A DNA stretch of 64,000 nucleotides. It comes from Thiomonas delicata (GTDB lineage: Bacteria > Pseudomonadota > Gammaproteobacteria > Burkholderiales > Burkholderiaceae_C). The position numbers were made by a program, and so were the translations under genes. The notes beneath the pieces are model-generated. The model did no database searches. It saw nothing but the letters and a program-made list of their open reading frames with translations, and was not told the DNA's origin. Positions 28,555 to 45,537 of this stretch are shown here, one piece after another. The first letter of the stretch is position 1, and each line of letters begins with the position of its first letter. The DNA lies in NCBI RefSeq assembly GCF_900088825.1, contig NZ_LT592171.1, positions 916,425 through 980,424 on the forward strand, in the 5' to 3' direction.

Positions 28555-29976
28555 ATGGCAGTCAAAACCTATCAGGCCGGGGTCAAGGAGTACCGGCAAA
28601 CCTACTGGCAGCCCGATTACGTGCCGCTGGACACCGACATCCTGGCGTGTTTCAAAATCACCCCGCAGGCTGGCGTCGATCGCGAAGAGGCTGCCGCGGC
28701 GGTGGCCGCCGAGTCGTCCACGGGCACCTGGACCACGGTGTGGACCGACCTGCTGACCGACATGGACTATTACAGGGGTCGCGCCTATCGCATCGAGGAC
28801 GTCCCCGGCGATGACACCTGCTTCTACGCTTTCATCGCCTATCCCATCGACCTGTTCGAAGAGGGCTCTGTGGTCAACGTGTTCACCTCGCTGGTGGGCA
28901 ACGTGTTCGGTTTCAAGGCGATTCGCGCCCTGCGCCTGGAGGACGTGCGCTTCCCCATCGCCTATGTCAAGACCTGCGGCGGCCCCCCCAGCGGCATTCA
29001 GGTCGAGCGCGACAAGATGAACAAGTACGGCCGGCCGTTGCTGGGCTGCACCATCAAGCCCAAACTGGGCCTTTCGGCCAAGAATTACGGTCGCGCGGTG
29101 TACGAGTGCCTGCGCGGCGGCCTGGACTTCACCAAGGACGACGAGAACATCAACTCGCAGCCGTTCATGCGCTGGCGCGACCGCTTCGAATTCGTGCAGG
29201 AAGCCACGCTGAAGGCCGAGGCCGAGACCGGCGAGCGCAAGGGCCACTATCTGAACGTCACCGCGCCCACGCCTGAAGAGATGTACAAGCGCGCCGAGTT
29301 CGCCAAAGAGATCGGCGCGCCGATCATCATGCACGATTACATCACCGGCGGCTTCTGCGCCAACACCGGCCTGGCCAACTGGTGCCGCGACAACGGCATG
29401 CTGCTGCACATCCACCGCGCCATGCACGCCGTGCTCGACCGCAATCCGCACCACGGCATCCACTTCCGCGTGCTGACCAAGATCCTGCGCCTGTCCGGCG
29501 GCGATCACCTGCACACCGGCACCGTGGTGGGCAAGCTTGAAGGCGACCGCGCCTCCACGCTGGGCTGGATCGACCTGCTGCGCGAATCCTTCGTGCCGGA
29601 AGACCGTTCGCGCGGCATCTTCTTCGACCAGGACTGGGGTTCGATGCCCGGCGCATTCGCCGTCGCGTCCGGCGGCATCCACGTCTGGCACATGCCCGCG
29701 CTGGTCACCATCTTCGGTGACGATTCGGTCCTGCAATTCGGCGGTGGCACGCTCGGCCACCCCTGGGGCAACGCCGCCGGTGCGCACGCCAACCGCGTCG
29801 CACTCGAAGCCTGCGTGCAGGCGCGCAATGAAGGCCGCCAGGTCGAGAAAGAAGGCCGTGAGATCCTGACCGCCGCCGCGCAGCACTCGCCTGAACTGAA
29901 AATCGCCATGGAAACCTGGAAAGAGATCAAGTTCGAGTTCGACACGGTGGATAAGCTCGACATCGCCAACAAGTAA
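28555..29976 (+). CDS. cbbL: Form IA Rubisco large subunit
   Basis: CbbL carries out CO2 fixation onto ribulose-1,5-bisphosphate inside the carboxysome. The 473-residue protein has the catalytic KPKLG loop (Lys168, Lys170) and the carbamylated Lys194 with metal ligands Asp196 and Glu197 in [10 protein letters not shown]. The mobile loop 6 region is [11 protein letters not shown]. Being followed by cbbS and csoS2 identifies the carboxysomal IA type. ATG 28555 has AAGGAG nine bases upstream; an upstream in-frame start at 28516 is not needed. Confidence 0.98.
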
Positions 29977-30060
29977 TGCTGCAAACCGAATCCGCTCGAT
30001 TCGCGCCGCAATGAGGCGACGCCGGCCGGATTCGACCCCCAACTTCGAAAGGACACAGCC

Positions 30061-30387
30061 ATGGCCGTTCAAGCCTATCGCTCGACGAAAAAGTACGAAA
30101 CCTTTTCGTATCTTCCCCAGATGACGCCCGACCAGGTGCGCCGCCAGATTGCCTACGCCATCGCCCAGGGCTGGAACCCTGCGGTCGAGCACACCGCCAA
30201 GGGAACGCCTGCCAAGGTGAGCTTTTGGCATATGTGGAAGCTGCCGATGTTCGGCGAGCAGTCGATCGACGTCGTGCTGGCCGAGATCGAGGCCTGCCAT
30301 CGTGAATTTCCCGATCAAATGGTGCGCTTCGTCGCTTACGACAACTACGCGCAGAGCCAGGGCATCGCTTTTGTCGTTTACCGCTGA
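30061..30387 (+). CDS. cbbS: Form IA Rubisco small subunit
   Basis: This 108-residue protein has the small-subunit sequence [19 protein letters not shown] and a C-terminal segment [21 protein letters not shown]. It caps the L8 core to form L8S8 Rubisco, whose surface at the L/S junction is where the CsoS2 N-repeats bind. It follows cbbL by 84 bases, with GAAAGGA in front of the ATG. A hairpin after it separates it from csoS2. Confidence 0.98.
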
Positions 30388-30492: not shown

Positions 30493-33201
30493 ATGACAAT
30501 CGCTGCACCAGGTCATGCCAATGCAAACCTATCCGGGCGGGAATTGGCGCTCCAGCGTCGCCAGGCGATGGCCCGCCAAGGCAAAACCGCCATCGCCAAA
30601 GCGCCTGCGCCGCACGGCAGCGCAGGCGGCATGATGGATGCAGCCAAGGTCGCAACCGCCTGGCGCAGCGCGCAGGCCCCAGCGCCTGCGGCGGTATCGA
30701 CCATGCCGGTCTCGGCACGCGCCGAGGCCTTGCCGGCGGCAGCCGTGTCGCCAGCACGGGCGCGACGTCAAGCGCTCGCCACTGTTGGCAAGGCCGCCCT
30801 GCAAACCGCTTCGACGGCTCGTCCGAGCGCGCATTTGCGTCAAGCCGCGCATCCGTCTGGCGCGGGTGATTGCGGCTGCGGCGCGCAGTGCGATTGCCAG
30901 GCTCAGCGCGCCGACGCTCCGAGTGGGGAGCAGGTGCAGCGAGCGGCGGCTGGCGAGGTGTCGGTAGCCGTGGTGACGGCGCAGGAACACGCGCAGCGCG
31001 CGCCCGCTGCCACGGGCGTCGAACAGGCGACTGGACGCGCGTTGGCCAAGATGCGTCGCGCAGCGCTGACGCAAGATGGCAAGGCTGGGCTCAAGCGGGT
31101 TGCCCAGGCGACCAAGATCGCCGCGGCGATGCCAGGGCAGGATTGGCAGGCTGCAATGATCCGGGGCGCCACCGGAAGACAGGTCGCGATGCAGCATCGC
31201 CTGGTGCTGTCGCTCGCCGGTCGCGCGGGCCTGTCGACCAGCGCCGCATCGAGACCGAGCGGGCGGGTCAAGGCGCGTGACGTCAAGGCGGCGCCGGTCA
31301 AGGTCGAGGAAGGCCACACCCTGTCCGGCCAACCCGTCACCGGCACGATGGTCGAGCGCAGCGCCAAGGTCACCGGCAACGAGCCCGGATCGTGCCGCAA
31401 CATCACCGGTACTGAATACATCGGTACCGAACAGTTCCAGACCATCTGCGGCGTGCGTGCCGAACCCGGCGTGCCCAAGGTTGCGATAGGCAGCACGCTG
31501 CGCGAGCAGCGCATCACGGGCACCGCGCTGGGTCGCTCGACCAAGGCCACCGGCGATGAACCGGGCACCTGCTATGCCGTGACCGGGACGGAATATCTGT
31601 CGGCCGAGCGTTTCCAACAGTTCTGCGGTACGCGCCCGACCCCATCTCCAGAAAAAGTCGCGGTGGCATCCACCGACAAGGGCAAAACTGTGACGGGTTC
31701 CCTGGTCGACCGCCCGCGCAAAGTCACCGGCGTCGAATCCGGCGCCGATCGATCGATCACCGGTACGCGCTACGGCCGCCCGCCGGAAAGCGACAACGCG
31801 CCGGACAAGGTCGCGGTCACGCACACCGGCTCGGGCAAAACGGTCACGGGCACGCTGGTGGGCCGCAGCGAGCGCCTCACCGGCGACGAGGCCGGTAGCT
31901 GCCGCGTCATCACCGGAACCGAATATCTTTCCGCCGAACAGTTCCGCGACCTGTGCCGCACCAGCGCACCGGCTGCGCCGCGCAAGGTCAGTGTGATGTC
32001 GACGCGCGACGCGCAAGCCGTTTCGGGTAGCACCGTTGATCGTTCGACGAAGGTCACCGGCAACGAGGTCGGCTCTTGCCGCGCGATCACCGGAAGCCAG
32101 TACTACACCACGGCCGATTTCGCAGCCCTGTGCGAAGCGCCCGGGCCGAACAAGGTCAGCACGATGCACACCCTCGCCGGACGTGTTGTCACGGGTTCGG
32201 AGGTCGCTCCAAGCCCAAAATTGTCGGGTGACGAATCCTATGGGTGCAAACCCGTCACCGGTACCGACTACATCGGCACCCAGCAGCTTGCAGCCGTGTG
32301 CCCGCCAGGGCAGGCGCCGGCCGCGCAATCCGTGAGCAAGGTCGTCTTCGACACCACGCTGCGAGGTCAGCCGGTCTCCGGCAGCTATCCGGGGCGTGCT
32401 GCCAACGTCACCGGCAACGAAGCCGGCGCCTGCGCTCCCATCAGCGGCGCGCAGTACTCCGGCACGTCGCAAATGCAGAATTTCTGCCCGGCCCCTAGCC
32501 TCGAGGCCCAGGCGGCGCGCGTGCGCGACAGCGCCGTGATTCCGGCCACCGTCGTGACCGGCGACCGTCCCGGCGCAGGAGGATCGCAGATGACCGGCGA
32601 TGAGCGTGGCGCGTGCGAGCCGGTTTCAGGCACGCCTTACCTCGGGCCGGACAACAGGCCCGACCATTGCGCGGTGAGCGGTCGTTTCGTTTCGCGCGGA
32701 CGCACGTTCGATGTCGCGCCGCGGCCGCCCGCGCCGAAGGATTTCAGCATCCAGAGTCCGGCGCGTCAGGCGCGTGAGCGCCAAGTCGACGATGTGACCG
32801 GTAGTGCGCTGAGCAGCTCGCGCATCACCGGGCCGATCAACAAGGCTGACGGCCTGATCACCGGAACGCCGGAGTTCCGGCATGGCGATATGTCCCGCCG
32901 CCAGACGCAACAGGATGAAGTCGTCGCTGCCGCGCTGCGCCTGAGCGGCGAGGGAAGCCAGCAAGGGACCCGCATTTCGGGCGATGCCTGGAACGCCAAC
33001 ACCCGCGTCACGGGCACTGAAGGCTCGTCCAGCCTGGTGCGCAACCCTTCGAAGCGCGGCCAGCCGCGTGGCGCCGGTGTCAACGCGGTGAAGTTCCGCG
33101 AACTCGAGCGTCCGGAAGTGCCTGATTCGGTCATCACCGGGTCGTCCGGTAACACCCGCAGAGGTGCCACCGTCACCGTTTCGGGCGGAGCGCGCGGCTG
33201 A
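30493..33201 (+). CDS. csoS2: Carboxysome scaffold protein CsoS2
   Basis: This 902-residue disordered scaffold links Rubisco to the shell. The N-region (1-260) has four short basic helices of the type RRQAMARQGK, RRQALATVGK, RRAALTQDGK and HRLVLSLAGR, which bind Rubisco. The M-region (about 268-615) has six repeats with VTG/ITG triplets and paired cysteines; the third repeat is shortened and lacks both cysteines. The C-region (from about 617) has more ITG motifs and ends VTVSGGARG, the shell-anchoring terminus. Some relatives make a short form by ribosomal frameshift; no obvious in-frame slippery heptamer was found here. Confidence 0.97.
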   Translation: MTIAAPGHANANLSGRELALQRRQAMARQGKTAIAKAPAPHGSAGGMMDAAKVATAWRSAQAPAPAAVSTMPVSARAEALPAAAVSPARARRQALATVGKAALQTASTARPSAHLRQAAHPSGAGDCGCGAQCDCQAQRADAPSGEQVQRAAAGEVSVAVVTAQEHAQRAPAATGVEQATGRALAKMRRAALTQDGKAGLKRVAQATKIAAAMPGQDWQAAMIRGATGRQVAMQHRLVLSLAGRAGLSTSAASRPSGRVKARDVKAAPVKVEEGHTLSGQPVTGTMVERSAKVTGNEPGSCRNITGTEYIGTEQFQTICGVRAEPGVPKVAIGSTLREQRITGTALGRSTKATGDEPGTCYAVTGTEYLSAERFQQFCGTRPTPSPEKVAVASTDKGKTVTGSLVDRPRKVTGVESGADRSITGTRYGRPPESDNAPDKVAVTHTGSGKTVTGTLVGRSERLTGDEAGSCRVITGTEYLSAEQFRDLCRTSAPAAPRKVSVMSTRDAQAVSGSTVDRSTKVTGNEVGSCRAITGSQYYTTADFAALCEAPGPNKVSTMHTLAGRVVTGSEVAPSPKLSGDESYGCKPVTGTDYIGTQQLAAVCPPGQAPAAQSVSKVVFDTTLRGQPVSGSYPGRAANVTGNEAGACAPISGAQYSGTSQMQNFCPAPSLEAQAARVRDSAVIPATVVTGDRPGAGGSQMTGDERGACEPVSGTPYLGPDNRPDHCAVSGRFVSRGRTFDVAPRPPAPKDFSIQSPARQARERQVDDVTGSALSSSRITGPINKADGLITGTPEFRHGDMSRRQTQQDEVVAAALRLSGEGSQQGTRISGDAWNANTRVTGTEGSSSLVRNPSKRGQPRGAGVNAVKFRELERPEVPDSVITGSSGNTRRGATVTVSGGARG

Positions 33202-33212
33202 GGATTGTGGCG

Positions 33213-34742
33213 ATGAACACGCGACAACGTATGCAGGCCTTGCGGCGCAGCGGCGTCGGGCCGGTGGGCATGGCCGACGCGGGTGGCATCGCGGCGGTGC
33301 CCGAGCATCCTGCTTGCGTCATCGGCAGCGGGCAGAGTTGCGAGCACTCGCTCGTCGACCGCGAACTCAACCGGGAGCTGTTCACTTACGAGCAGACCGT
33401 GCGCGGACGCTTCGCCCGCATCGTCGGCGTGCTCAAGCAAATTTCTGCGCATCAGCATGACGCCACATTTGCCGAGCGCGCGCAGCAACTCGCGCTCGAG
33501 CAGCTCGGTTTCGAACTGCCGCGCGAGGTGCTCGACGACGCCTGGGTTTCGGGGCTGGACCTGCGTGCACTGCACTCGCACTGCATTTTCAACAGCCTCA
33601 AGCTGTGTGTCGAGCGCGCCAGCGCGGAGCAGGCGGGATGGAGTCAGCGACTGCCGATCGACTCGAATCTCCTGCATAGCTGCGGTTACCACACGGTGGA
33701 CATCAGCCCGTGCGCCGACGGCCGCCTGCAAGGCATTGCCCCCTATGTGCTGCGCTTGCTGCCCGCGCCGAACGTACGCGTGAAGGCCTATGCCGGTGCC
33801 CTGTTCGACGTCGACGGCGACGTGGCTGACTGGGCACAGCGCGAAGTCGAGCGCCTCTCGGGAGCGATGGAAGACGGTGATCGTCTCAATTACCTGAAGA
33901 TCGCGGTCTATCACCTGAGCAGTTCCAATCCCGGCGCGCAGGGCTGCGCCGCGCATGGCAGCAACGATCGTCAAGCCACCGAGTCGGCGCTCAGCCGCCT
34001 CGATGAACTCCGCGAGGCGATCGATCGCAGTTTCGGTGTCGGCGCGGCGCCCGACGTGCTGCTGATCGGGGTCGACACCGATCTGGACGCGCTGCGCATC
34101 CATCTTCCCGACGCGTTCGGCGATGTCAATCCGCACCGCTACATCGAAACCGGGAAGATCTACCGCGAGACCCTTGGGCTGTCGGCCGAGGCGGCACGCG
34201 TGCGGATCGCCGAGATGATCGCCGACGTCGAGAGCACCGGCGGCTGGGGCCAGGGCCAGGGCCAGATGCGCGACGGCATGCGCCGCCTGGTGTCGGCGCT
34301 GGCCGAGGCCAATCTGTCGCAGATCGAATACGTCATCAAGCACCACACCGGGCGCTATGCCGTCATCGGCCACGACGAGGAGTGCATCGTCGCCGGCGAG
34401 GCCGTGCGCACGCTGCAGTTGCGCAACCTGTTTTATTTCGCACATCTCGACACCGTGGAGGAGGGGGCGCCCGACATGGACGTGGGGATCAAGATTTTTC
34501 GCAATCTCAATGTTGCCCATGGCTTGCCGGTGCCGGTGTTGGTGCATTTCGAATACGACTCCCGCATTCCCGGCTCGCGCCAGCGCGCAGTCGATCGCGC
34601 GTGCCGCGTGCGCGACGCCATCGTCGGGCGCTACGCCGATCTGGCAAAGAAGGGGTTGCTGACATGCGCCATGGCGGTCAGCGACCGCAACGGCGACGAA
34701 TGCTGCGACTTCGTGGCCGATGAAGCCGTCGCGGACCATTGA
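33213..34742 (+). CDS. csoSCA: Carboxysomal carbonic anhydrase CsoSCA
   Basis: CsoSCA (CsoS3) dehydrates bicarbonate to CO2 next to Rubisco inside the shell. The epsilon/beta-type zinc site is complete: Cys167 with Asp169 and Arg171 in SPCADGRL, His234 in AVYHLSSSN, and Cys245 eleven residues later. That spacing equals Halothiobacillus C173/H242/C253. The protein has 509 residues, the normal length. ATG 33213 has GAGGA eight bases upstream and is preferred to GTG 33207. Confidence 0.97.
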   Translation: MNTRQRMQALRRSGVGPVGMADAGGIAAVPEHPACVIGSGQSCEHSLVDRELNRELFTYEQTVRGRFARIVGVLKQISAHQHDATFAERAQQLALEQLGFELPREVLDDAWVSGLDLRALHSHCIFNSLKLCVERASAEQAGWSQRLPIDSNLLHSCGYHTVDISPCADGRLQGIAPYVLRLLPAPNVRVKAYAGALFDVDGDVADWAQREVERLSGAMEDGDRLNYLKIAVYHLSSSNPGAQGCAAHGSNDRQATESALSRLDELREAIDRSFGVGAAPDVLLIGVDTDLDALRIHLPDAFGDVNPHRYIETGKIYRETLGLSAEAARVRIAEMIADVESTGGWGQGQGQMRDGMRRLVSALAEANLSQIEYVIKHHTGRYAVIGHDEECIVAGEAVRTLQLRNLFYFAHLDTVEEGAPDMDVGIKIFRNLNVAHGLPVPVLVHFEYDSRIPGSRQRAVDRACRVRDAIVGRYADLAKKGLLTCAMAVSDRNGDECCDFVADEAVADH

Positions 34743-36514: not shown

Positions 36515-36777
36515 GCGACGCATTGCAAGGCTGGGAAAGGCGCGACAAGCCGCCAACATTGTTCAGACGCTTCGCCTTCGAGCGTTACGCCCAGACGCGC
36601 GCGTTTCTCGATGCCTTGTCGGCTCTATGCGATGAGTTCGGGCGGCATCCGCAGAATATCAATTTCGGCACCACCTACGTCAATGTCACGCTCGAGGCGG
36701 CCGACGGCCAGGCCTTCGCGCCACAGGATGAAGTCTTCGCCGCACGCATCTCAGCGCTGGCCGAGCAGGGGGAGTGA
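36511..36777 (+). CDS. Rubisco assembly factor acRAF (pterin dehydratase-like)
   Basis: This 88-residue protein has the pterin-4a-carbinolamine dehydratase fold: FAFERYAQTRAFLDALSALCDE and then RHPQNINFGTTYVNVTLEA. The true enzyme has a catalytic histidine cluster (HHPE...); here it is RHPQNINFGT, so dehydratase activity is unlikely. The family acts as a chaperone of alpha-carboxysomal Rubisco assembly. The ATG lies in the stop of the ferritin-like gene and the end abuts mcdA, making three coupled genes. Confidence 0.92.
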   Translation: MSDALQGWERRDKPPTLFRRFAFERYAQTRAFLDALSALCDEFGRHPQNINFGTTYVNVTLEAADGQAFAPQDEVFAARISALAEQGE

Positions 36778-36788
36778 CGTTGGCAGGC

Positions 36789-37418
36789 ATGCGGGTCATC
36801 GCGGTCATCAACCAAAAGGGTGGTGCCGGCAAGACCACGGTGGCGATGAATCTCGCCGCCGGGCTGGCGCGACGTGCGCCAGCCGTGGTCGTCGATCTCG
36901 ACCCGCAGTCCTCGGCCACGCAATGGGCCGCGGCCGGCACCGCGACATTTCCCGCCACGGTCAAGCAGCTTCGCGTCGGCGCCAGCCTGCCTGATTTGCG
37001 CCGGGAATTCCGCGCCTTCGATCACATCGTGCTCGACTGCCCGCCATCGGTCGACACCCGCGCCGCGGCACTCGCGCTGCAGACCTGCGATGTCGCGCTG
37101 ATCCCGGTTCTGCCTTCGCCCGTGGACCTGTGGGCTAGCCTGCGGCTACCTCAGGAAATCGACGAGGCGCGCAAACGCAATCCGAAGCTGCGAGCCTTCC
37201 TGCTGCTCAATCAGATCGAAGCGCGAAGCGCGCTGTCGGCGGCCATGCAGGAAGCGCTGGCCGAATTCGGCCTGCCGGTGCTGCAAACCCCGGTACGCCG
37301 GCGCAGCATCTACAAGACGGCGGCGCTCGAAGGCGTGTCGGTGTTTCAAATGGGTGCGCGCGGGCAGGCCGCCGCCGCAGAAATCGAGGCCATCATCGAG
37401 GAGGTTGTAGCATCATGA
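36789..37418 (+). CDS. mcdA: ParA-type ATPase McdA, carboxysome positioning
   Basis: This 209-residue ParA/MinD-family ATPase has the deviant Walker A box with signature lysine, KGGAGKTT, then DLDPQSSATQW and the Walker B-like HIVLDCPPS. In alpha-carboxysome operons this gene is McdA, which forms ATP-dependent gradients on the nucleoid to space carboxysomes. ATG 36789 is preferred; GTG 36774 overlaps the acRAF stop and would add five residues. Its stop overlaps the mcdB start. Confidence 0.92.
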   Translation: MRVIAVINQKGGAGKTTVAMNLAAGLARRAPAVVVDLDPQSSATQWAAAGTATFPATVKQLRVGASLPDLRREFRAFDHIVLDCPPSVDTRAAALALQTCDVALIPVLPSPVDLWASLRLPQEIDEARKRNPKLRAFLLLNQIEARSALSAAMQEALAEFGLPVLQTPVRRRSIYKTAALEGVSVFQMGARGQAAAAEIEAIIEEVVAS

Positions 37419-37660
37419 CCAGCATCAAAGACAAGCTTGCCAGCAGTGTGCGTCAGGCCAAATCCGCCACGCCGTCCAAGACCGCCGCTGCCAAGCCCGC
37501 CGCACCGCGCCCGGCAGCCAAGGGCGCCAAGCAAACGAGCACGCAGCCCGCGCCGGCGCGTCAAGCCGCTGCCCCTGCGCGCATCCAGGGCACTGGAGCG
37601 AACCTTGAGCCCGCTTCGAGCGCCCAGGCACTTTTCCCCGATCGCGTGTGGCCGGACTGA
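37415..37660 (+). CDS. mcdB: Carboxysome positioning adaptor McdB (alpha type)
   Basis: This 81-residue, low-complexity protein is rich in Ala, Lys and Pro, with a basic N-terminus (MTSIKDKLASSVRQAK) and an acidic, Trp-containing end (LFPDRVWPD). Small disordered proteins with an invariant C-terminal tryptophan next to mcdA are alpha-type McdB, which couples carboxysomes to the McdA gradient. It starts in the mcdA stop (ATGA). The call rests on context and composition more than on a fold. Confidence 0.85.
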   Translation: MTSIKDKLASSVRQAKSATPSKTAAAKPAAPRPAAKGAKQTSTQPAPARQAAAPARIQGTGANLEPASSAQALFPDRVWPD

Positions 37661-37780
37661 AACCGGTCGAACCGATGACTTCTGGATACCACCATGCGTG
37701 ACGAAAATCTGATGCGAACCTATATGCCGCGGCGGGATGCAGCTTCCCGTTCTACGACTTCGACCTCGGAGACGCAACCG

Positions 37781-38617
37781 ATGTCGCGATCAGCGGCCGA
37801 AACCGGTGCGCCGACATCGGGTTTGCTCGACAGCTACCGCGTGGCCCGCGAGCCCTACTATCGCGCCGTCGGCGACGAAGTCGCGCTGTACGAGGCGGCA
37901 TACTCGGTGCGCATGCCCATCATGCTCAAGGGGCCCACCGGCTGCGGCAAGACCCGTTTTGTCGAATACATGGCGTGGAAGCTCGGCAAGCCGCTGATCA
38001 CCGTGGCGTGCAACGAGGACATGACCGCCTCCGACCTGGTCGGCCGCTTCTTGCTCGACGCCAGCGGCACGCGCTGGCAGGATGGACCGCTGGCGCTGGC
38101 AGCGCGCCATGGCGCGATTTGCTATCTCGACGAAGTGGTCGAGGCCCGGCAGGACACCACGGTCGTGATCCACCCGCTGACCGACGCGCGGCGCATTCTG
38201 CCGCTGGAGAAAAAGGGCGAGATCATCGAGGCGCACCCCGATTTCCAGGTGGTCATCTCGTACAACCCGGGCTACCAGTCGCTGATGAAAGACCTCAAGC
38301 AGTCGACCAAGCAACGTTTCGGCGCATTGGATTTCAACTACCCCGAACACGAGACCGAGGCCGAGATCGTCGCGCACGAAAGCGGCGTGGGCGTGGACGT
38401 GGCGAAGAACCTGGTGCACATCGCCGAGCGGGCGCGCAACCTCAAAGGGCATGGCCTCGATGAAGGCATTTCCACCCGCATGCTGATCTACGCCGGCAGC
38501 CTGATCGCCAAGGGCGTGGCGCCGCTGGCGGCGTGCCGCGTCGCCTTGGTGCGGCCGATCACCGACGACCCCGACATGCGCGATGCGCTCGATTCGGCGG
38601 TCACCACCTACTTCTGA
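37781..38617 (+). CDS. cbbQ: Rubisco activase AAA+ subunit CbbQ
   Basis: This 278-residue MoxR-class AAA+ ATPase has Walker A GPTGCGKT and Walker B ICYLDEV, followed by the sensor-like [11 protein letters not shown]. CbbQ hexamers with CbbO remove inhibitory sugar phosphates from Rubisco, using ATP. ATG 37781 gives the usual CbbQ length; an in-frame ATG at 37694 would add a 29-residue serine/threonine-rich tail and cannot be excluded. Confidence 0.96.
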
Positions 38618-38680: not shown

Positions 38681-41041
38681 ATGGCCATTCACCTCGAAGA
38701 ATTCCAAGAACTGCTCGACGAACTGCCCGGAGGCGCGCAGGAGCTGCTGCGTGCGTCTTGGAACGAGGCGGCGCGTGCATTCACGCCGCGCGGCCTGGAC
38801 AACTACATCAAGGGCGCGGTCGCGTTGCATCACCTCGGCCGCGGCGAAGACCTGGTCGTCGGCTTCATCCAGTCCATGCCCGAGCTGGCGCGCGGGGTGG
38901 GCGAGGAAGTGCTGCCCGATCTGGTCAATTTTCTCCTCAGCATGGCGTCCAAGACCTCGGGCCATGTGCTGGCGCTGATCGTCGGCACCGCGCCGCTGGC
39001 GGCGCAGCGCCTGGGCGATGCCGACCTGTTCGGCAGTTACCTCAAGGTGCTCGAGATCGTGCTCGCGCAGGTGCCCCGCGGCCTGCGCCCGATGTTGGAA
39101 AACCTCGACCGTCTGCTCACCCAGCTCACCTTGGGTGGCCTGCGGCGCTGGGTGCAGTGGGGCGCGCAGGCGTATCGCAGCGATTTCGACGGTCAGGTCG
39201 CGTACTTTTCGCTGCAGAGTCCGGACGCGCTGGCTGTGCTGCAGCAAGAGCGCAAGGGCACGCTGTTCGTCGACATCCAGCGCCGCCTGAACATCTATCA
39301 ACGCGCGATGTGGGGGCGCGATTTTTTCCTGCGGCCGACCGCGGGTGATTACGAAAACCGCGAAGCACTCAAGCCCTACATCGAGCATTACGTCATCCAC
39401 ATCGCCGACGCCTACGACGACTACAAGCCGCTGGGCCCCGACACCCCGCCCGAGCAATGCGTGCCGGCGCTGGAGATCTACCGCGCCGCGGCCAACCATT
39501 GCGCCGCGCATCTGGTGTTCACCCAACAGCCGCTGTCCATGCAGATGCTGCACCCGGCGCAAATGGCCGTGATCGAGGTGTTCGAAGATGCACGGGTCGA
39601 GGAACTGGCAATCCGGCAGTTTCCGAACATGCGCGAGGCCTGGCTGGCGTTGCACCCGGTGTTCGACGATGCGCGCGAGCCGCAGAGCGTCGGCGAACTG
39701 CTCGACCGCCTGGCTCGCGCGTTGCTGGAAGCGCAGAGCCGCGACCCGCATCCCTGGGTGCGCGAAGCCGTGGCGGCGTTTCGCGCGCAGGACGATCTGT
39801 CGAGCAACCAGACGAGCTGGAACCTCGGCATCGATTTGTCGCATAAGCTGTTCGAGCTGCCGCTGCCCGAGTTCAACAGCCGCACCGATCACCGCTTGAG
39901 CGCGATCTACCGCGACGACAACCGGGCGGTGTGGCAGCTCGAGGAGTACGACGAGGCGCAGGCGCTGGAAGCCACCTGGCAGACGCGGCAGCAGGTGCGC
40001 AAGAAAGTCAGCCTGATGGAAATGGTCAACGAAGTCGACAACGAGTTCGCCGGCGATGACGCGCAGGAAGTCTGGGAGCTGCCGACCGAATACCTGTTCG
40101 ACGACGGCGTCAGCATCAACGAACTCGAAGGCCGCCCACCGATTTCCGAGCCTTTCCATTATCCCGAGTGGGACTACCAGATTCAGCTCGACCGCCCGAA
40201 CTGGGTCACCGTCCTCGAGCGCCATCCGCCGGTGCGTGAGCTCGAAATCATCGAGAACATCATCGCCGATAACAAGCCGTTGATCTCGCGGCTGAAGTTC
40301 CTGATCGAATCGATGGTGCCGCAAGGCATGCAGCGCATCCGTCACGTCGAAGATGGCGACGAGATCGATATCAACGCCGCGGTGCGCGCGATGATCGACA
40401 TCCGCATGGGCCAGCAACCCGACCCGCGCATCATGATGCGGAACAAGCGCAAGCTGCGCGAGCTCGCCGTGATGGTGTTGCTGGACATGTCCGAGTCGTC
40501 CAACGACAAGGTGCGCGGACACGACTACACGGTGATGGACCTCACCCGCACGGCCACCGTGCTGTTCGCCGACGCGCTCGACCGCATCGGCGATCCGTTC
40601 GCGATCCACGGCTTCTGCTCCGATGGCCGGCACGACGTGCACTACCACCGCTTCAAGGACTTCGACCAGCCTTATGGCGACCTCGTCAAGGCACGCCTGG
40701 CCGGCATGAAGGGGCATCTGTCCACGCGCATGGGCGCGGCGCTGCGTCACGCCGGGCACTATCTGGCGCAGCAGCCCAAGTCCAAGCGCGTGATTTTCGT
40801 CATCACCGACGGCGAGCCGGCCGACAACGACGTGCGTGATCCGCAATACCTGCGCCACGACACCAAGCATGCGATCGAGCAACTCGCGCGCCAGGGCATC
40901 ACGGTGTATGCGCTGTCGCTCGACCCGCATGCCGACCAATACGTATCGCGCATTTTCGGGGCGAAGAACTTCACCGTCATCGACCAGGTCGAGCGTCTGC
41001 CGGAAAAACTGCCGATGCTGTACATGAACCTCACGCGCTGA
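38681..41041 (+). CDS. cbbO: Rubisco activase adaptor CbbO (VWA protein)
   Basis: This 786-residue protein ends in a von Willebrand factor A domain (about 590-786). Its metal-binding MIDAS motif DMSESS is intact, with a later ITDGEP completing the site. The N-terminal two-thirds is helical and specific to CbbO/NorD-type proteins. CbbO docks CbbQ onto Rubisco through the MIDAS. It follows cbbQ by 63 bases in the operon. Confidence 0.96.
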
Positions 41042-41054
41042 AGGGTGCCACGCG

Positions 41055-41687
41055 ATGAAAATCAGCTTGCGCACCTTCGTCTTTCTCGACGCGCTGCAAC
41101 CGCAGCTCGCGTCCTATCTCGCCACCTCGTCGCAGGGCTTTCTGCCGGTGCCGGGCGATGCCTGCATGTGGATCGAAGTCGCCCCCGGCATGGCGGTCCA
41201 CAACCTCTCGGACATCGCGCTGAAAAAAACCAATGTGCGCATGGGTGAGCAGGTGGTGGAGCGTGCGTTCGGATCGATGGAAATCCATTTCCGCAACCAA
41301 AGCGAAGTGCTCGCTGCCGGCGATGTGATCCTGCGGCAGCTCGACACCACGATGGAATCGCGCCTGCGCTGCAAAATCGCTTGGAACGAGATCATCCGCG
41401 CCATCACCCCCGACCATGCCACGCTGATCAACCGTCAACTGCGCAAAGGCTCGATGCTGTTGCCGGGCAAGAGCATGTTCATCCTCGAAGTCGAGCCTGC
41501 CGGCTACATTGTCTATGCGGCCAATGAGGCGGAAAAGGCCGCTCACGTCACGCTGGTGGACGTCAAACCCTTCGGCAGCTTCGGCCGCCTGACTATGATG
41601 GGATCGGAGGCCGAGGCCGAGGAGGCGCAACGTGCCGCAGTGGCGGCGATCGAGCGCCTGAACCAGCGCGCTGCCGCCCACCCCTGA
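41055..41687 (+). CDS. csoS1D: Tandem-BMC shell protein CsoS1D
   Basis: This 210-residue protein has two BMC folds in tandem (about 30-105 and 130-205), the second recognisable in [20 protein letters not shown] then [18 protein letters not shown]. CsoS1D forms pseudohexameric trimers that stack and can open a large gated pore for metabolites such as RuBP. The paired gate residues Glu-Arg appear as E69-R70 in [13 protein letters not shown]. It lies directly behind cbbO, with a 13-base gap. Confidence 0.88.
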
Positions 41688-41727
41688 GGCAGAGCGACGC
41701 TGCCGAGCCGCCCCCGCACATCGCATC

Positions 41728-42552
41728 ATGGAAATCGACTCGATCGCCAAGCGCCTGCTGTTTTGCACGGTGCGCGTGGACACCGAACTCGAAGACGGCA
41801 GTGCCGGCTCGGGAACCGCGTTCATCATCACCCACAGCCACGCCAAGGGCACGACGCCGTTCATCGTCACCAATCGGCATCTGGTCGAAGGGGTGCGCCG
41901 CGGCGGGTTGGTGTTCACGCAGGCGCGTGATGGCAAGCCCGCCTTCGGCCAGCGTTTCCAACTCAACATCGACGACTTCCCGGCGGCTTGGTTTTTCCAT
42001 CCCGATCCCGAGGTCGACTTGGCCATCGTGCCGCTGCGCCCGCTGGAGCGCGCCGCGCGCGAACTTGGCATCGATCTCTATTACCACGCGATCGACAGCG
42101 CCAGCATTCCCGATGCCGCCGCCACGCGCGGCTTCGACGCGCTTGAGGACGTGTTGTTCGTCGGCTACCCCAGCGGTATGTGGGATGAGGTCAACCTCAT
42201 GCCTATCCTGCGCCGGGGCACCACTGCCACGCCGCTGGAACTCGATTTCGAGGGCCAGAAGCAGTTCCTGATCGACGCCGCGGTGTACCCGGGGTCGAGC
42301 GGAAGCCCGGTGTTCGTCATGCGCGACGATCCGCTGCGCCCGCGCGGCGACGGCGCGCGCTCGATCTGGTTTGCGGGTGTCGTCGCGGCGGTGTTTTTCC
42401 GCGAAGAAGCCAACCAGATCGTCCCCGGCCCGGTGCCGGCGCACAATGCAGGCCCGTCGGTCGCTTCCGAAATGATCGACCTGGGTTTGATCATCAAGTC
42501 CGAATCGGTGCGCGAAGTCATCGACGCTTTCGTGCGCAACTGGCTTAGCTGA
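41728..42552 (+). CDS. Trypsin-like serine protease in the carboxysome operon
   Basis: This 274-residue protein has the chymotrypsin-fold triad: His in FIVTNRHLVEG, Asp in EVDLAIVPL and Ser in YPGSSGSPVF. It has no signal peptide, membrane helix or PDZ domain, so it should act in the cytoplasm. It lies 40 bases after csoS1D and 36 before the next small gene, all on one strand, which points to co-transcription. Proteases are not a known part of alpha-carboxysomes. Processing of CsoS2, CsoSCA or the shell, or unrelated quality control, are possible. Confidence 0.8.
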   Translation: MEIDSIAKRLLFCTVRVDTELEDGSAGSGTAFIITHSHAKGTTPFIVTNRHLVEGVRRGGLVFTQARDGKPAFGQRFQLNIDDFPAAWFFHPDPEVDLAIVPLRPLERAARELGIDLYYHAIDSASIPDAAATRGFDALEDVLFVGYPSGMWDEVNLMPILRRGTTATPLELDFEGQKQFLIDAAVYPGSSGSPVFVMRDDPLRPRGDGARSIWFAGVVAAVFFREEANQIVPGPVPAHNAGPSVASEMIDLGLIIKSESVREVIDAFVRNWLS

Positions 42553-42588
42553 TCGTTCGAACCCCACAGCCGCTTCACCGGTGCAACC

Positions 42589-42888
42589 ATGCAAAAGATG
42601 ACCTATCCCGGATTCAGTCAGGACAAGCACGGCATCACCCAGCTCGGCCGTGTCGTGCTCGACGCCCGCGTGTTCGGCTTCATCGCCGAGACCGAGGATT
42701 GCGCCGGCTGGGACCTGGGCCGCATGCAGGCCCTGGTCGAACGCGTGGACCGCGAGTGGGACAAGCACGGCAACCTGCCGAGCAGTTTGCCTCCCGAACT
42801 CCGCGCGCGTCACGCCCGCTTCTATGCGGAGGCCATCGTCCGCGCCAGGGAACATGGCTGGGACGCGGAACTGGACGACGACGAGTAG
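42589..42888 (+). CDS. Small conserved-looking protein, unknown function
   Basis: This 99-residue soluble protein begins YPGFSQDKHGITQLGRVVLDA and has an acidic end (AELDDDE). It is mostly helical with several tryptophans and no signal or membrane segment. It is not recognised as any family. It follows the protease by 36 bases and is the last gene before the strand run is broken by the mgtA promoter region. It may be a regulatory or cargo-related part of the carboxysome operon, by position only. Confidence 0.7.
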   Translation: MQKMTYPGFSQDKHGITQLGRVVLDARVFGFIAETEDCAGWDLGRMQALVERVDREWDKHGNLPSSLPPELRARHARFYAEAIVRAREHGWDAELDDDE

Positions 42889-43038
42889 GCCGGCACAGAC
42901 CGCCCCGGTGCTTGTCATGCCGGGCCGGACGGCGTGGCTGTCATGGTCTGCGCCTACGATCGGGGCTCGAAGTCCAAAGCCGTGCTTCCCATCGATGCGC
43001 GAATGCGGACGCAGCCACCGTGACCCGGATCATGATCC

Positions 43039-45537
43039 ATGGATACGCATGCGACCGCTCGGCCCATGCAGTGGAATGGCCTGAGCAGCGCCGAAGCGCA
43101 GGCGCGATTCAAGCGCGACGGCCCCAACCAGATCCGGCCGCAGCCGCAACGGCGGCTGGCCCTGCAACTACTGGCGCGGTTCCAGAACCCGCTGGTGCTG
43201 ATCCTGCTGGCGGCCAGCGGCGTTTCGGCGATGACGGGCGATGTCATGGGCGCCGCCGTCATCGGCGTCATCATCCTGGCCAGTGTGCTGCTGGACTTTT
43301 TCCAGGAGCATCGTGCCGGCCGAGCGGCCGAGCGTCTGGCCGAGCAAGTCGCCGTGACCGTCACGACGCTGCGCGACGGTCTGCCGTGCGCGTTGGCTTT
43401 GCCGCAACTGGTGCAGGGCGATGTCGTTCTTTTGTCCGCGGGCAACCTGGTCCCGGCCGACGGTTTGGCGCTGGAAGTCGAGGATTTTTTCGTCAATCAG
43501 GCCCAGCTCACCGGAGAGCCGTATCCGGTCGAGAAACACGTCGATCCGAGCGCTGGGTTCGACGCCTGGCTGCCCGAGGCCGGGAATGCCGTGTTCATGG
43601 GCAGCTCGGTGATCAGCGGTTCGGCGCGCATCCTCGTCATGCGCACGGGGTCTGCCACCGCGCTGGGGCAGATCGCGGCATCCCTGGCCAAGCCGGCCCC
43701 GGCAACGGCGTTCGAGCGCGGGACGCGCCAGTTCGGCCTGTTGATCATGCGTCTGACCCTGGCCATGGTGCTGTTCGTGCTGCTGGTCAACATCGTCCAT
43801 CACCGTCCGTTGCTGGAATCGTTTCTGTTCGCGGTGGCGCTGGCGGTCGGGCTCACGCCCGAGCTGCTGCCGATGATCGTCTCGGTGACGCTGGCGCGAG
43901 GCGCCTTGCGCATGGCGGACCAGAAGGTCATCGTCAAGCGCTTGTCAGCCATCCAGGACATGGGATCGATGGACGTCCTGTGCACCGACAAGACCGGAAC
44001 GCTGACGCAGGCGCGCATACGCCTGGAGCGCCATGTCGACGCGCAAAACCAGGAATACGCGCGGGTGCTGGAACTGGCCTACTTGAACAGTTCTTTCGAA
44101 ACCGGGCTGAAGAGCCCGCTCGACGACGCCATCCTGCAGCATGGCGAAGTGGACGTTTCCGGGTGGAAAAAGCTCGACGAGGTGCCGTTCGACTTCGAGC
44201 GCCGACGGGTTTCGGTCCTGGTCGCGCGCGGGTCGCAGCGCCTGCTGATCTGCAAGGGCGCGCCGGAAGACATCCTCCGCCTGTGCGCCCGGTACGAGGG
44301 CGAGGGCGGCGAGATCCTGCCGCTCGACGCGCAGGCGCGCGGGCGCATCGAGGGACTTTTCGACCGCCTGGGAGATGACGGTTTTCGCGTGCTGGGGATC
44401 GGCTGGCGCGAGGTGGCAGCGGATCATCCGCACGCCGTCGTCACCGATGAAACCGCGCTGATCTTCGCCGGGCTCGCCGCATTTCTCGATCCCCCCAAGG
44501 CGAGCGCGGGCCCGGCGCTGGCCGCCATGGTCGCCAGCGGCCTGGCGGTGAAAATCGTGACCGGCGACAGCGAGCGCGTCACGCGGCACGTCTGCGCGCA
44601 GCTGGGCTTGCCGATCACCGGCGTGCTGACCGGCCAGGAGATCGCGCGCATGAACGACGATGCGCTGCGCGCGCGCGTGGGCGGGGTGAATCTCATTTGC
44701 CGCGCCAACCCGGCGCAGAAGACCCGTGTCCTGCTGGCGCTCAAGGCGCGCGGGCACGTCGTCGGCTATCTGGGCGACGGCATCAACGACGCCCCTTCCT
44801 TGCACACCGCCGACGTGGGCATCTCCGTCGACAGCGCGGTGGACGTGGCCAAGCAGGCCGCGGCCATGATCCTGCTCGAGAACGACCTCCACGTGCTGCA
44901 CGCCGGCATCCTCGAAGGCCGGCGCACCTTCGGCAACGTGATGAAGTACATCATGATGGCGACCAGCTCCAACTTCGGCAATATGTTCAGCATGGCCGCG
45001 GCAGCCGTGGTCTTGCCCTTCCTGCCCATGCTGCCGTTGCAGATCCTGCTCAACAACCTGCTCTACGACGTCTCCGAGTTGCCGCTGCCGCTCGATCGCG
45101 TGGACCATGAGGACATGGCGCGCCCGCGACGCTGGGACATGCGCTTCATCCGCAACTTCATGCTGGTGATCGGGCCGATCAGCTCGGTGTTCGATCTGCT
45201 CACCTTCTACCTGCTGATCGTTCTGTTCAAGGCCGACGAGGCGCTTTTTCACACCGGCTGGTTCGTCGAGTCCATCGCCACCCAGGTCCTGGTGATCTTC
45301 GTCATCCGCACGCGGCGCAACCCGCTGCGCAGCCACCCGCATCCCTGGTTGATGCTGGTTTCCCTGGGGGTGGTGGCGCTGGCCATGCTGCTGCCCTTCT
45401 CGCCCATCGCCGGCGATCTGGGTTTCGCGCCGCTGCCCTTGGAGTTCTTCGCACTCCTGACGGTGCTGCTGGTGGTCTACCTGCTCTTGGTGGAGGCCGG
45501 CAAGCGCTGGTTCTACCGGCGCTGGGCATACGCATGA
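43039..45537 (+). CDS. mgtA: Magnesium-translocating P-type ATPase MgtA
   Basis: This 832-residue P-type (3B) ATPase imports Mg2+ using ATP. It shows the actuator loop QLTGEPYPVEK, the ion-helix segment GLTPELLPMIVSVTLARGAL and the phosphorylation motif DKTGTLT, plus the hinge YLGDGINDAPSLHTADVGI. Sequence between GLTPELLPMI and MDVLCTDKTGTLT is closer to MgtA/MgtB than to calcium pumps. No Mg-sensing leader was identified in the 150-base gap before it. Mg2+ supply would suit Rubisco demand, but it is not obviously in the carboxysome operon. Confidence 0.92.
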   Translation: MDTHATARPMQWNGLSSAEAQARFKRDGPNQIRPQPQRRLALQLLARFQNPLVLILLAASGVSAMTGDVMGAAVIGVIILASVLLDFFQEHRAGRAAERLAEQVAVTVTTLRDGLPCALALPQLVQGDVVLLSAGNLVPADGLALEVEDFFVNQAQLTGEPYPVEKHVDPSAGFDAWLPEAGNAVFMGSSVISGSARILVMRTGSATALGQIAASLAKPAPATAFERGTRQFGLLIMRLTLAMVLFVLLVNIVHHRPLLESFLFAVALAVGLTPELLPMIVSVTLARGALRMADQKVIVKRLSAIQDMGSMDVLCTDKTGTLTQARIRLERHVDAQNQEYARVLELAYLNSSFETGLKSPLDDAILQHGEVDVSGWKKLDEVPFDFERRRVSVLVARGSQRLLICKGAPEDILRLCARYEGEGGEILPLDAQARGRIEGLFDRLGDDGFRVLGIGWREVAADHPHAVVTDETALIFAGLAAFLDPPKASAGPALAAMVASGLAVKIVTGDSERVTRHVCAQLGLPITGVLTGQEIARMNDDALRARVGGVNLICRANPAQKTRVLLALKARGHVVGYLGDGINDAPSLHTADVGISVDSAVDVAKQAAAMILLENDLHVLHAGILEGRRTFGNVMKYIMMATSSNFGNMFSMAAAAVVLPFLPMLPLQILLNNLLYDVSELPLPLDRVDHEDMARPRRWDMRFIRNFMLVIGPISSVFDLLTFYLLIVLFKADEALFHTGWFVESIATQVLVIFVIRTRRNPLRSHPHPWLMLVSLGVVALAMLLPFSPIAGDLGFAPLPLEFFALLTVLLVVYLLLVEAGKRWFYRRWAYA

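Follow-up and report, generated by a model that had tools for sequence, protein, structure and literature searches.

A lineage-specific serine protease gene at the end of an alpha-carboxysome operon in Thiomonas delicata

Expanded alpha-carboxysome loci carry cbbQ, cbbO, csoS1D, dab and mcdAB, as set out in the sections of PMC4633670 that describe them, and the part of Axen et al. (2014, PMC4207490) dealing with carboxysome loci lists no protease there. The same source does place a peptidase gene in GRM3 microcompartment loci, where its role is called unclear and regulation is suggested. Such a gene is also absent from the passages on carboxysomes or activases in PMC4207490, PMC4633670, PMC10781756, PMC5385338 and PMC12918739, the last a 2026 review in whose main text 'proteas', 'proteoly' and 'degrad' do not occur, and no dedicated carboxysome protease was found described among the titles and abstract openings of the open-access literature. 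Elsewhere, MoxR-vWA ternary conflict systems combine a MoxR AAA+ ATPase, a VWA protein and a trypsin-fold peptidase in one operon, according to the relevant part of Kaur et al. (2020, PMC7159879), and the PDC-S45 protease family was named in a Sinorhizobium prophage (in the passage of PMC12429752 concerned).

The window, that is, the whole stretch of 64,000 nucleotides analysed here, contains a carboxysome operon that ends in a protease gene. Its features are as follows.

28555–30387, + strand: cbbL and cbbS, form I Rubisco (from the ORF list and annotated homologues on a Nitrobacter hamburgensis plasmid)
30493–33201, + strand: csoS2 (from the ORF list and homology)
32214–32220, + strand: CCCAAAA slippery heptamer in csoS2, the predicted source of the short form CsoS2A
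33207–34742, + strand: csoSCA, carboxysomal carbonic anhydrase, used here as the lineage marker
36774–37418, + strand: mcdA-like ParA ATPase of the same block (Pfam, NCBIfam)
37415–37660, + strand: mcdB-like small ORF (our reading of position and composition; no family match)
37694–38617, + strand: cbbQ, MoxR-type AAA+ Rubisco activase subunit, 307 aa, with a lineage-specific tail at residues 1–44
37694–37825, + strand: DNA for that CbbQ tail, a candidate substrate or docking site
38681–41041, + strand: cbbO, VWA-domain adaptor of CbbQ (Pfam)
41055–41687, + strand: csoS1D, tandem-BMC shell protein (Pfam, NCBIfam)
41728–42552, + strand: cytoplasmic serine protease of Trypsin_2 fold, triad H51, D97 and S191

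The locus has the gene kinds of the expanded type up to csoS1D, but the protease and the CbbQ tail are additions; the Halothiobacillus CbbQ structure (5c3c) aligns from residue 41 of the window CbbQ. It resembles GRM3 loci in having a peptidase gene within a microcompartment locus, although the GRM3 compartment houses a glycyl-radical enzyme and is not a carboxysome, and the likeness is one of gene presence rather than peptidase type. The MoxR, VWA and trypsin-fold trio recalls the ternary conflict systems, but CbbQ and CbbO are Rubisco activases and no variable effectors were recognised here; a general Pfam scan of seven window proteins found no VMAP or iSTAND third component. With Trypsin_2 and HtrA/Deg enzymes the protein shares the predicted chymotrypsin fold, the order of the triad and a GxSGxP nucleophile loop, whereas it has no PDZ domain and its sequence likeness to solved HtrAs is marginal. 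It also lacks a visible signal peptide and is therefore not periplasmic, unlike periplasmic HtrA/Deg proteases. PDC-S45 gives a near full-length model match (PADLOC, 295.7 bits, residues 1–268), but the carboxysomal members have invariant positions of their own and sit in a metabolic operon, and the defence role of that family is itself a candidate one.

The protease and its place in the operon

The gene is real, intact, conserved and lineage-specific. Its ORF begins with ATG and encodes 274 residues plus a stop codon. The motifs TNRHLVEG, EVDLAIVPL and GSSGSP are each found and supply H51, D97 and S191, so that the intact His-Asp-Ser triad of the original prediction stands. Its other two statements on architecture are likewise borne out: the Pfam scan yields Trypsin_2 alone (PF13365; 42.6 bits, with the cut-off at 27.6), with no PDZ domain, and no signal peptide is visible because the maximum 15-residue hydropathy within the first 60 residues is 0.95. 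No matching NCBIfam model was found. Across 18 carboxysomal sequences, which include two near-copies (L005 and L006), the three triad residues are identical throughout, 110 of 272 ungapped columns are invariant, lengths range from 272 to 276 aa, and no targeting tail was seen.

An AlphaFold2 model from 22 rows (mean pLDDT 88, pTM 0.88) predicts a chymotrypsin-like series of strands. Foldseek returned 175 PDB matches at E 0.001 or better, led by the bacterial serine protease 8kic and including many of DegP, DegQ and Deg2 type, with TM-scores to the query mostly about 0.4–0.5. By sequence, HtrA matches in the PDB are marginal (E 0.05; profile E 0.0016), and the nucleophile loop DAAVYPGSSGSP aligns with HtrA enzymes. 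The description 'trypsin-like' thus holds for the fold but is probably wrong for specificity, because the residue six before the catalytic Ser is Ala185 and not Asp. This residue, which we take to correspond to chymotrypsin position 189, would lie at the base of the S1 pocket, where an Ala suggests a small aliphatic P1. Judged by its intact triad and predicted fold, the protein is most likely a catalytically competent cytoplasmic serine endopeptidase of HtrA/chymotrypsin fold, without PDZ or targeting domains.

The protease start lies exactly 40 nt behind the csoS1D stop, as first noted, and the gene is the last conserved member of a cbbQ-cbbO-csoS1D-protease block. A pattern scan of 40000–44500 found no promoter- or terminator-like pattern in this gap (41688–41727), nor did it place any terminator-like site on the + strand in the interval from the protease to the following ORF. 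A promoter and terminator isolating the gene, which would have set it apart from the operon, were thus not found in the gap or behind it, but a weak promoter-like site does lie inside the end of csoS1D (41572–41599; 9 of 12 matches, 0.5 expected by chance), so an internal promoter may serve the protease. Terminator-like matches in the scanned region number five, against 3.2 ± 1.8 expected; three are on the + strand, namely two overlapping ones inside the protease ORF (42371–42393) and one at 42381.

Behind the protease lies a 99-aa ORF (42589–42888, + strand) of an unnamed family, without a Pfam or NCBIfam match. Relatives occur in 17 of 20 csoSCA genomes searched and are absent from G377, G742 and G731; some lie in or near Rubisco operons, as between cbbS and cbbQ in L071 or upstream of dabA in L147.

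A single lineage of carboxysome clusters

In a sample of 369 genomes from the window's class, the protease gave 12 matches at E 1e-20. Four of them, at 61–100% identity (G000, G106, G263 and G358), all lie at a csoSCA locus. The other eight, at 29–47% identity, have no carboxysome genes in the 5–19.5 kb fetched around them, and three of their genomes (G021, G191 and G277) carry csoSCA on another contig. The marker csoSCA is present in 68 of the 369 genomes, and 64 of these 68 lack a close copy of the protease (at least 60% identity) anywhere in the genome. Thus, the protease is not a core component of all alpha-carboxysome clusters.

Within the family of Nitrosomonas eutropha (91 genomes), both the protease and csoSCA occur in five genomes, and these are the same five; hand arithmetic puts the chance of this at 1 in 46.5 million, a figure that is overstated, since the genomes are related. 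The class of Nitrobacter (289 genomes) gave two matches, Nitrobacter at 86% and one at 33%, and the window's own order (200 genomes) gave two, the window genome and probably the N. eutropha genome G378, so identified by a match at the same contig position and score. In a phylum sample of 398 genomes there were four matches, the window alone exceeding 32%.

The relatives found at 60% identity or more are all at carboxysome loci, with csoS1D (or cbbO, if there is no csoS1D) as the preceding gene and 2–95 nt between it and the protease in each of the 18 loci. The refuting condition set out with the original prediction, orthologues mainly away from carboxysome loci, therefore does not apply at this level of identity, whereas family members below 50% identity do occur elsewhere. 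A scan of genome contigs by exact peptide patterns, which sees close relatives only, gave ten loci at 80–93% identity: two N. eutropha strains, five Nitrobacter or Nitrobacter MAG contigs, and three other MAGs labelled Proteobacteria, Burkholderiales and Nevskia. The protease follows cbbQ-cbbO-csoS1D in nine of them. In the tenth (L010), csoS1D-protease comes after dabA, P-II and cbbR, and a different contig holds csoSCA and the N-terminal part of csoS1D, so that the assembly appears to be split here. Nine of the ten genomes have csoSCA, and the remaining one is a MAG whose contig begins inside the cluster.

Plasmid 1 of Nitrobacter hamburgensis X14 holds the whole operon in the same gene order, with 5 nt between csoS1D and the protease; the annotation calls the latter 'serine protease' and the preceding csoS1D 'hypothetical protein'. 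In five Nitrobacter-type loci and on this plasmid the stop codon of csoS1D shares bases with an in-frame GTG, so translational coupling of the two genes is possible. The plasmid (L133; NC_007959.1) is classed as mobilizable and has a transposase gene about 3.4 kb beyond the operon, which makes it a plausible route for operon spread. Downstream of one N. eutropha protease, L001:12160–12948 contains a relative of the 99-aa ORF together with a short ORF that looks, on inspection, similar to a portion of cbbO; the arrangement gives the impression of a second, decayed cbb operon.

Loci of at most 20 kb centred on csoSCA were taken from other genomes of the class and the operon genes were mapped, acRAF rows being disregarded because their query had been translated in the wrong frame; several stretches end at contig ends, so protease absence rests on the whole-genome search. 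In a CsoSCA tree of 83 rows (a quick method with SH-aLRT only), 15 protease-bearing clusters and four second csoSCA copies lie on one side of a branch with support 100, and 64 protease-less clusters, none with the gene, lie on the other. The genome of L002 is represented in this tree by L147, and three loci were omitted: L003, whose contig has no csoSCA, L006, which nearly duplicates L005, and L010, whose csoSCA is on a different contig. The second csoSCA copies (L143, L144, L145 and L146), which come from four protease-bearing genomes and lie outside a full shell-gene cluster, nest inside the protease clade; L145 also has a csoS4A fragment beside P-II, cbbR and a second cbbLS.

Pairwise distances of the protease correlate with those of cbbO (r = 0.93), cbbQ (0.88), csoS1D (0.96), mcdA (0.97) and csoSCA (0.95), and 0 of 2000 Mantel permutations reached the observed value for each of the five; the smallest csoS4A lengths in this comparison (5 and 1) are start-choice artefacts. 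The protease is under purifying selection, with dN/dS of 0.052–0.118 in all ten pairs. The same pairs gave 0.049–0.200 for cbbO, and the nine available pairs gave 0.076–0.194 for csoSCA. These three genes supply the values used, mcdB being missing in five of the ten pairs and some csoS4A values being artefacts (17% for L133–L008, 75% for L007–L008, no dS for window–L001).

The protease is therefore a lineage-specific carboxysome operon gene: syntenic, co-occurring and confined to a single clade. Its predicted membership of the operon holds for synteny, co-occurrence, phylogeny and selection, all of which were tested, with the addition that only one carboxysome lineage has the gene. That it is a passenger, as was also considered, we reject as probably wrong because of its low dN/dS (0.05–0.12), its single clade and its co-occurrence with csoSCA.

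The CbbQ tail and other candidate substrates

Twelve operon families were searched for segments that distinguish protease-bearing clusters from the rest by occurring in just one of the two groups; mcdB, acRAF and the second csoS1 were outside this comparison, and cbbL and cbbS had just two and five protease-bearing rows. A long clade-specific segment appears in CbbQ alone (26 columns). In csoS2 a 5-column run is specific to the protease-bearing rows and a 7-column run is missing from them, and a 133-column cbbL run was set aside as truncation of the fetched loci. CsoSCA and CbbO, both proposed earlier as proteins to be trimmed, have no clade-specific extension in this comparison.

The CbbQ tail consists of a 14-residue head followed by an Ala/Ser/Thr-rich linker. 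In all 16 protease-bearing clusters 36–47 residues precede the core motif DxYRVxxEPYYR, against 0–17 in all 17 protease-less CbbQ inside fetched loci, ranges without overlap; starts were taken at a conserved Met in the former and at the last Met at least eight residues before PYY in the latter, which favours short tails there. As checks on this choice, nine of the 17 protease-less open frames are too short for such a tail, and the alignment of the Halothiobacillus CbbQ structure begins at window residue 41. The pattern RxYx(P/A)R stands near the start of 14 of the 16 tails, whereas L055 and L056 have MRR(L/F)TP(K/R)QLQAQHRR instead. The motif is missing from five further CbbQ/NorQ-type copies, which lie in four of the 11 protease-bearing genomes searched. 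Within the operon it has one more match, in DabA, possibly by chance given five matches in 127,996 six-frame residues.

In the AlphaFold2 prediction CbbQ residues 1–41 have pLDDT below 50, so that the tail is predicted to be disordered. Among six Nitrobacter-type loci dN/dS is 0.27 for the head and 0.51 for the linker, against 0.08 for the core; the tail is thus constrained but loose. Protease and tail mark one lineage and are kept together in the clusters sampled. Being confined to one clade, this pairing is a single evolutionary event and not repeated co-evolution; it suggests that the two may be coupled.

Two other operon proteins come into question. CsoS2 is largely disordered and has two forms in several proteobacteria, according to the pertinent part of PMC12918739, and so could be cut to give the short CsoS2A. 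In Halothiobacillus, frameshifting makes CsoS2A (PMC5009743, in the part describing it), and the csoS2 signal here resembles that layout: in the window gene the –1 frame closes after three codons, at a point 329 codons short of the C-terminus, and 13 of 15 protease-bearing csoS2 genes keep CCCAAAR followed three codons later by a –1 stop, 325–335 codons from the C-terminus. The same signature occurs in nine protease-less loci (a count that excludes L024–L053, which hold short csoS2 fragments only), so the short form needs no protease. We therefore reject CsoS2A production as the main job and regard the trimming of CsoS2, an original suggestion, as very improbable; a cut is possible in L009 and L054, whose csoS2 lacks the signal. 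CsoS1D is the immediate neighbour and possibly translationally coupled in Nitrobacter, but in G106, a single-contig genome of 99% completeness, csoS1D was not detected at E 1e-8; the protease begins 7 nt after cbbO there, and genes for an SbtA-type bicarbonate transporter and P-II come next. CsoS1D is thus no obligate target, a role we reject, and as it also shows no clade-specific segment among the 12 families, its processing by the protease is highly doubtful.

What the protease may do

We favour, with some confidence, the reading that the protein is an active peptidase serving the carboxysome and activase block, most likely by cutting one of its clients. A single recruitment would have brought the gene into the alpha-carboxysome operon in one lineage of proteobacteria, where it closes a Rubisco-maintenance block (mcdA-mcdB-cbbQ-cbbO-csoS1D-protease), and the operon would then have moved between classes. 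The protease would cut either the CbbQ/CbbO activase or proteins that the activase passes on, as limited or quality-control proteolysis, and the leading candidate site is the putatively exposed, Ala/Ser/Thr-rich CbbQ N-terminal tail, confined to this lineage among the clusters examined. Several observations weigh against this reading: most alpha-carboxysomes do without the gene, the match of protease and tail is one coincidence in one clade, relatives of less than 50% identity have no link to carboxysomes, and a weak promoter-like site lies inside csoS1D. The dN/dS values of head and linker also fit a plain docking tail that is never cut.

A narrower version, which we regard as unlikely, makes protease and tail the paired elements of a proteolytic switch acting on Rubisco activase. 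CbbQ hexamers would be anchored through the RxYxPR head to Rubisco, to CsoS2 or to the shell; the protease, a domesticated member of a phage-defence-type family, would clip the linker so that the activase is released, retired or matured.

General quality control, in which a Deg-like house-cleaner removes misfolded Rubisco, shell or activase proteins without a dedicated site, is in keeping with the many DegP, DegQ and Deg2 types among the Foldseek neighbours, the HtrA-like nucleophile loop and the Ala at the S1 base. It is nonetheless rather unlikely, as Pfam reveals no PDZ or oligomerisation module and a house-cleaner need not be fixed in one carboxysome lineage. The other alternative is that a PDC-S45 protease still defends against phage and is merely housed, domesticated or hitch-hiking, at the operon's end. 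All six non-carboxysomal relatives tested match the PDC-S45 model (80.8–401.5 bits; five at 224–402 and the sixth at 81), and three carboxysomal members score 282–296 bits, below four of those six. Distant relatives are scattered: by our reading of the ORFs they lie near glmU/glmS-like genes, among hydrogenase-maturation-like genes (CobW/HypB match) and in an array of short repeated ORFs; 12 of 13 plasmid records are below 60% identity, and Shigella phage SfII has one at 26%. The nearest non-carboxysomal relative (47%; L057:2852–10976) sits between AAA-AAA-Peptidase_M41 and Ser/Thr-kinase-WD40 proteins. Yet the protease is present in every sampled cluster of its clade and tracks the operon; the neighbours read are carboxysome or carbon-uptake genes, with a PADLOC scan covering two window proteins, the protease and that of the 99-aa ORF; at 50 positions the residue is invariant among 13 carboxysomal rows and is shared by at most two of nine others; and PDC-S45 is itself only a candidate family. 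We therefore hold continued defence to be quite improbable. The simplest reading of the family's distribution is that a mobile, stand-alone protease was recruited into a metabolic operon. The window's genome also encodes a distant 252-aa paralogue (G000:C5:348245; L065:8994–9752) that matches PDC-S45 at 80.8 bits.

The preferred reading, cleavage of a client of the block, bears on whether carboxysomes are remodelled or only built. It suggests control of the carboxysome, or of its repair machine, by protein cutting in a lineage that includes nitrifiers (Nitrobacter and Nitrosomonas eutropha), and it offers one concrete pair, the protease and the CbbQ tail. If the switch were true, it would be, as far as our searches show, the first operon-encoded carboxysome regulator that works by cutting. 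The finding is also relevant to moving carboxysomes into new hosts, where it raises the question of whether the protease gene should travel along.
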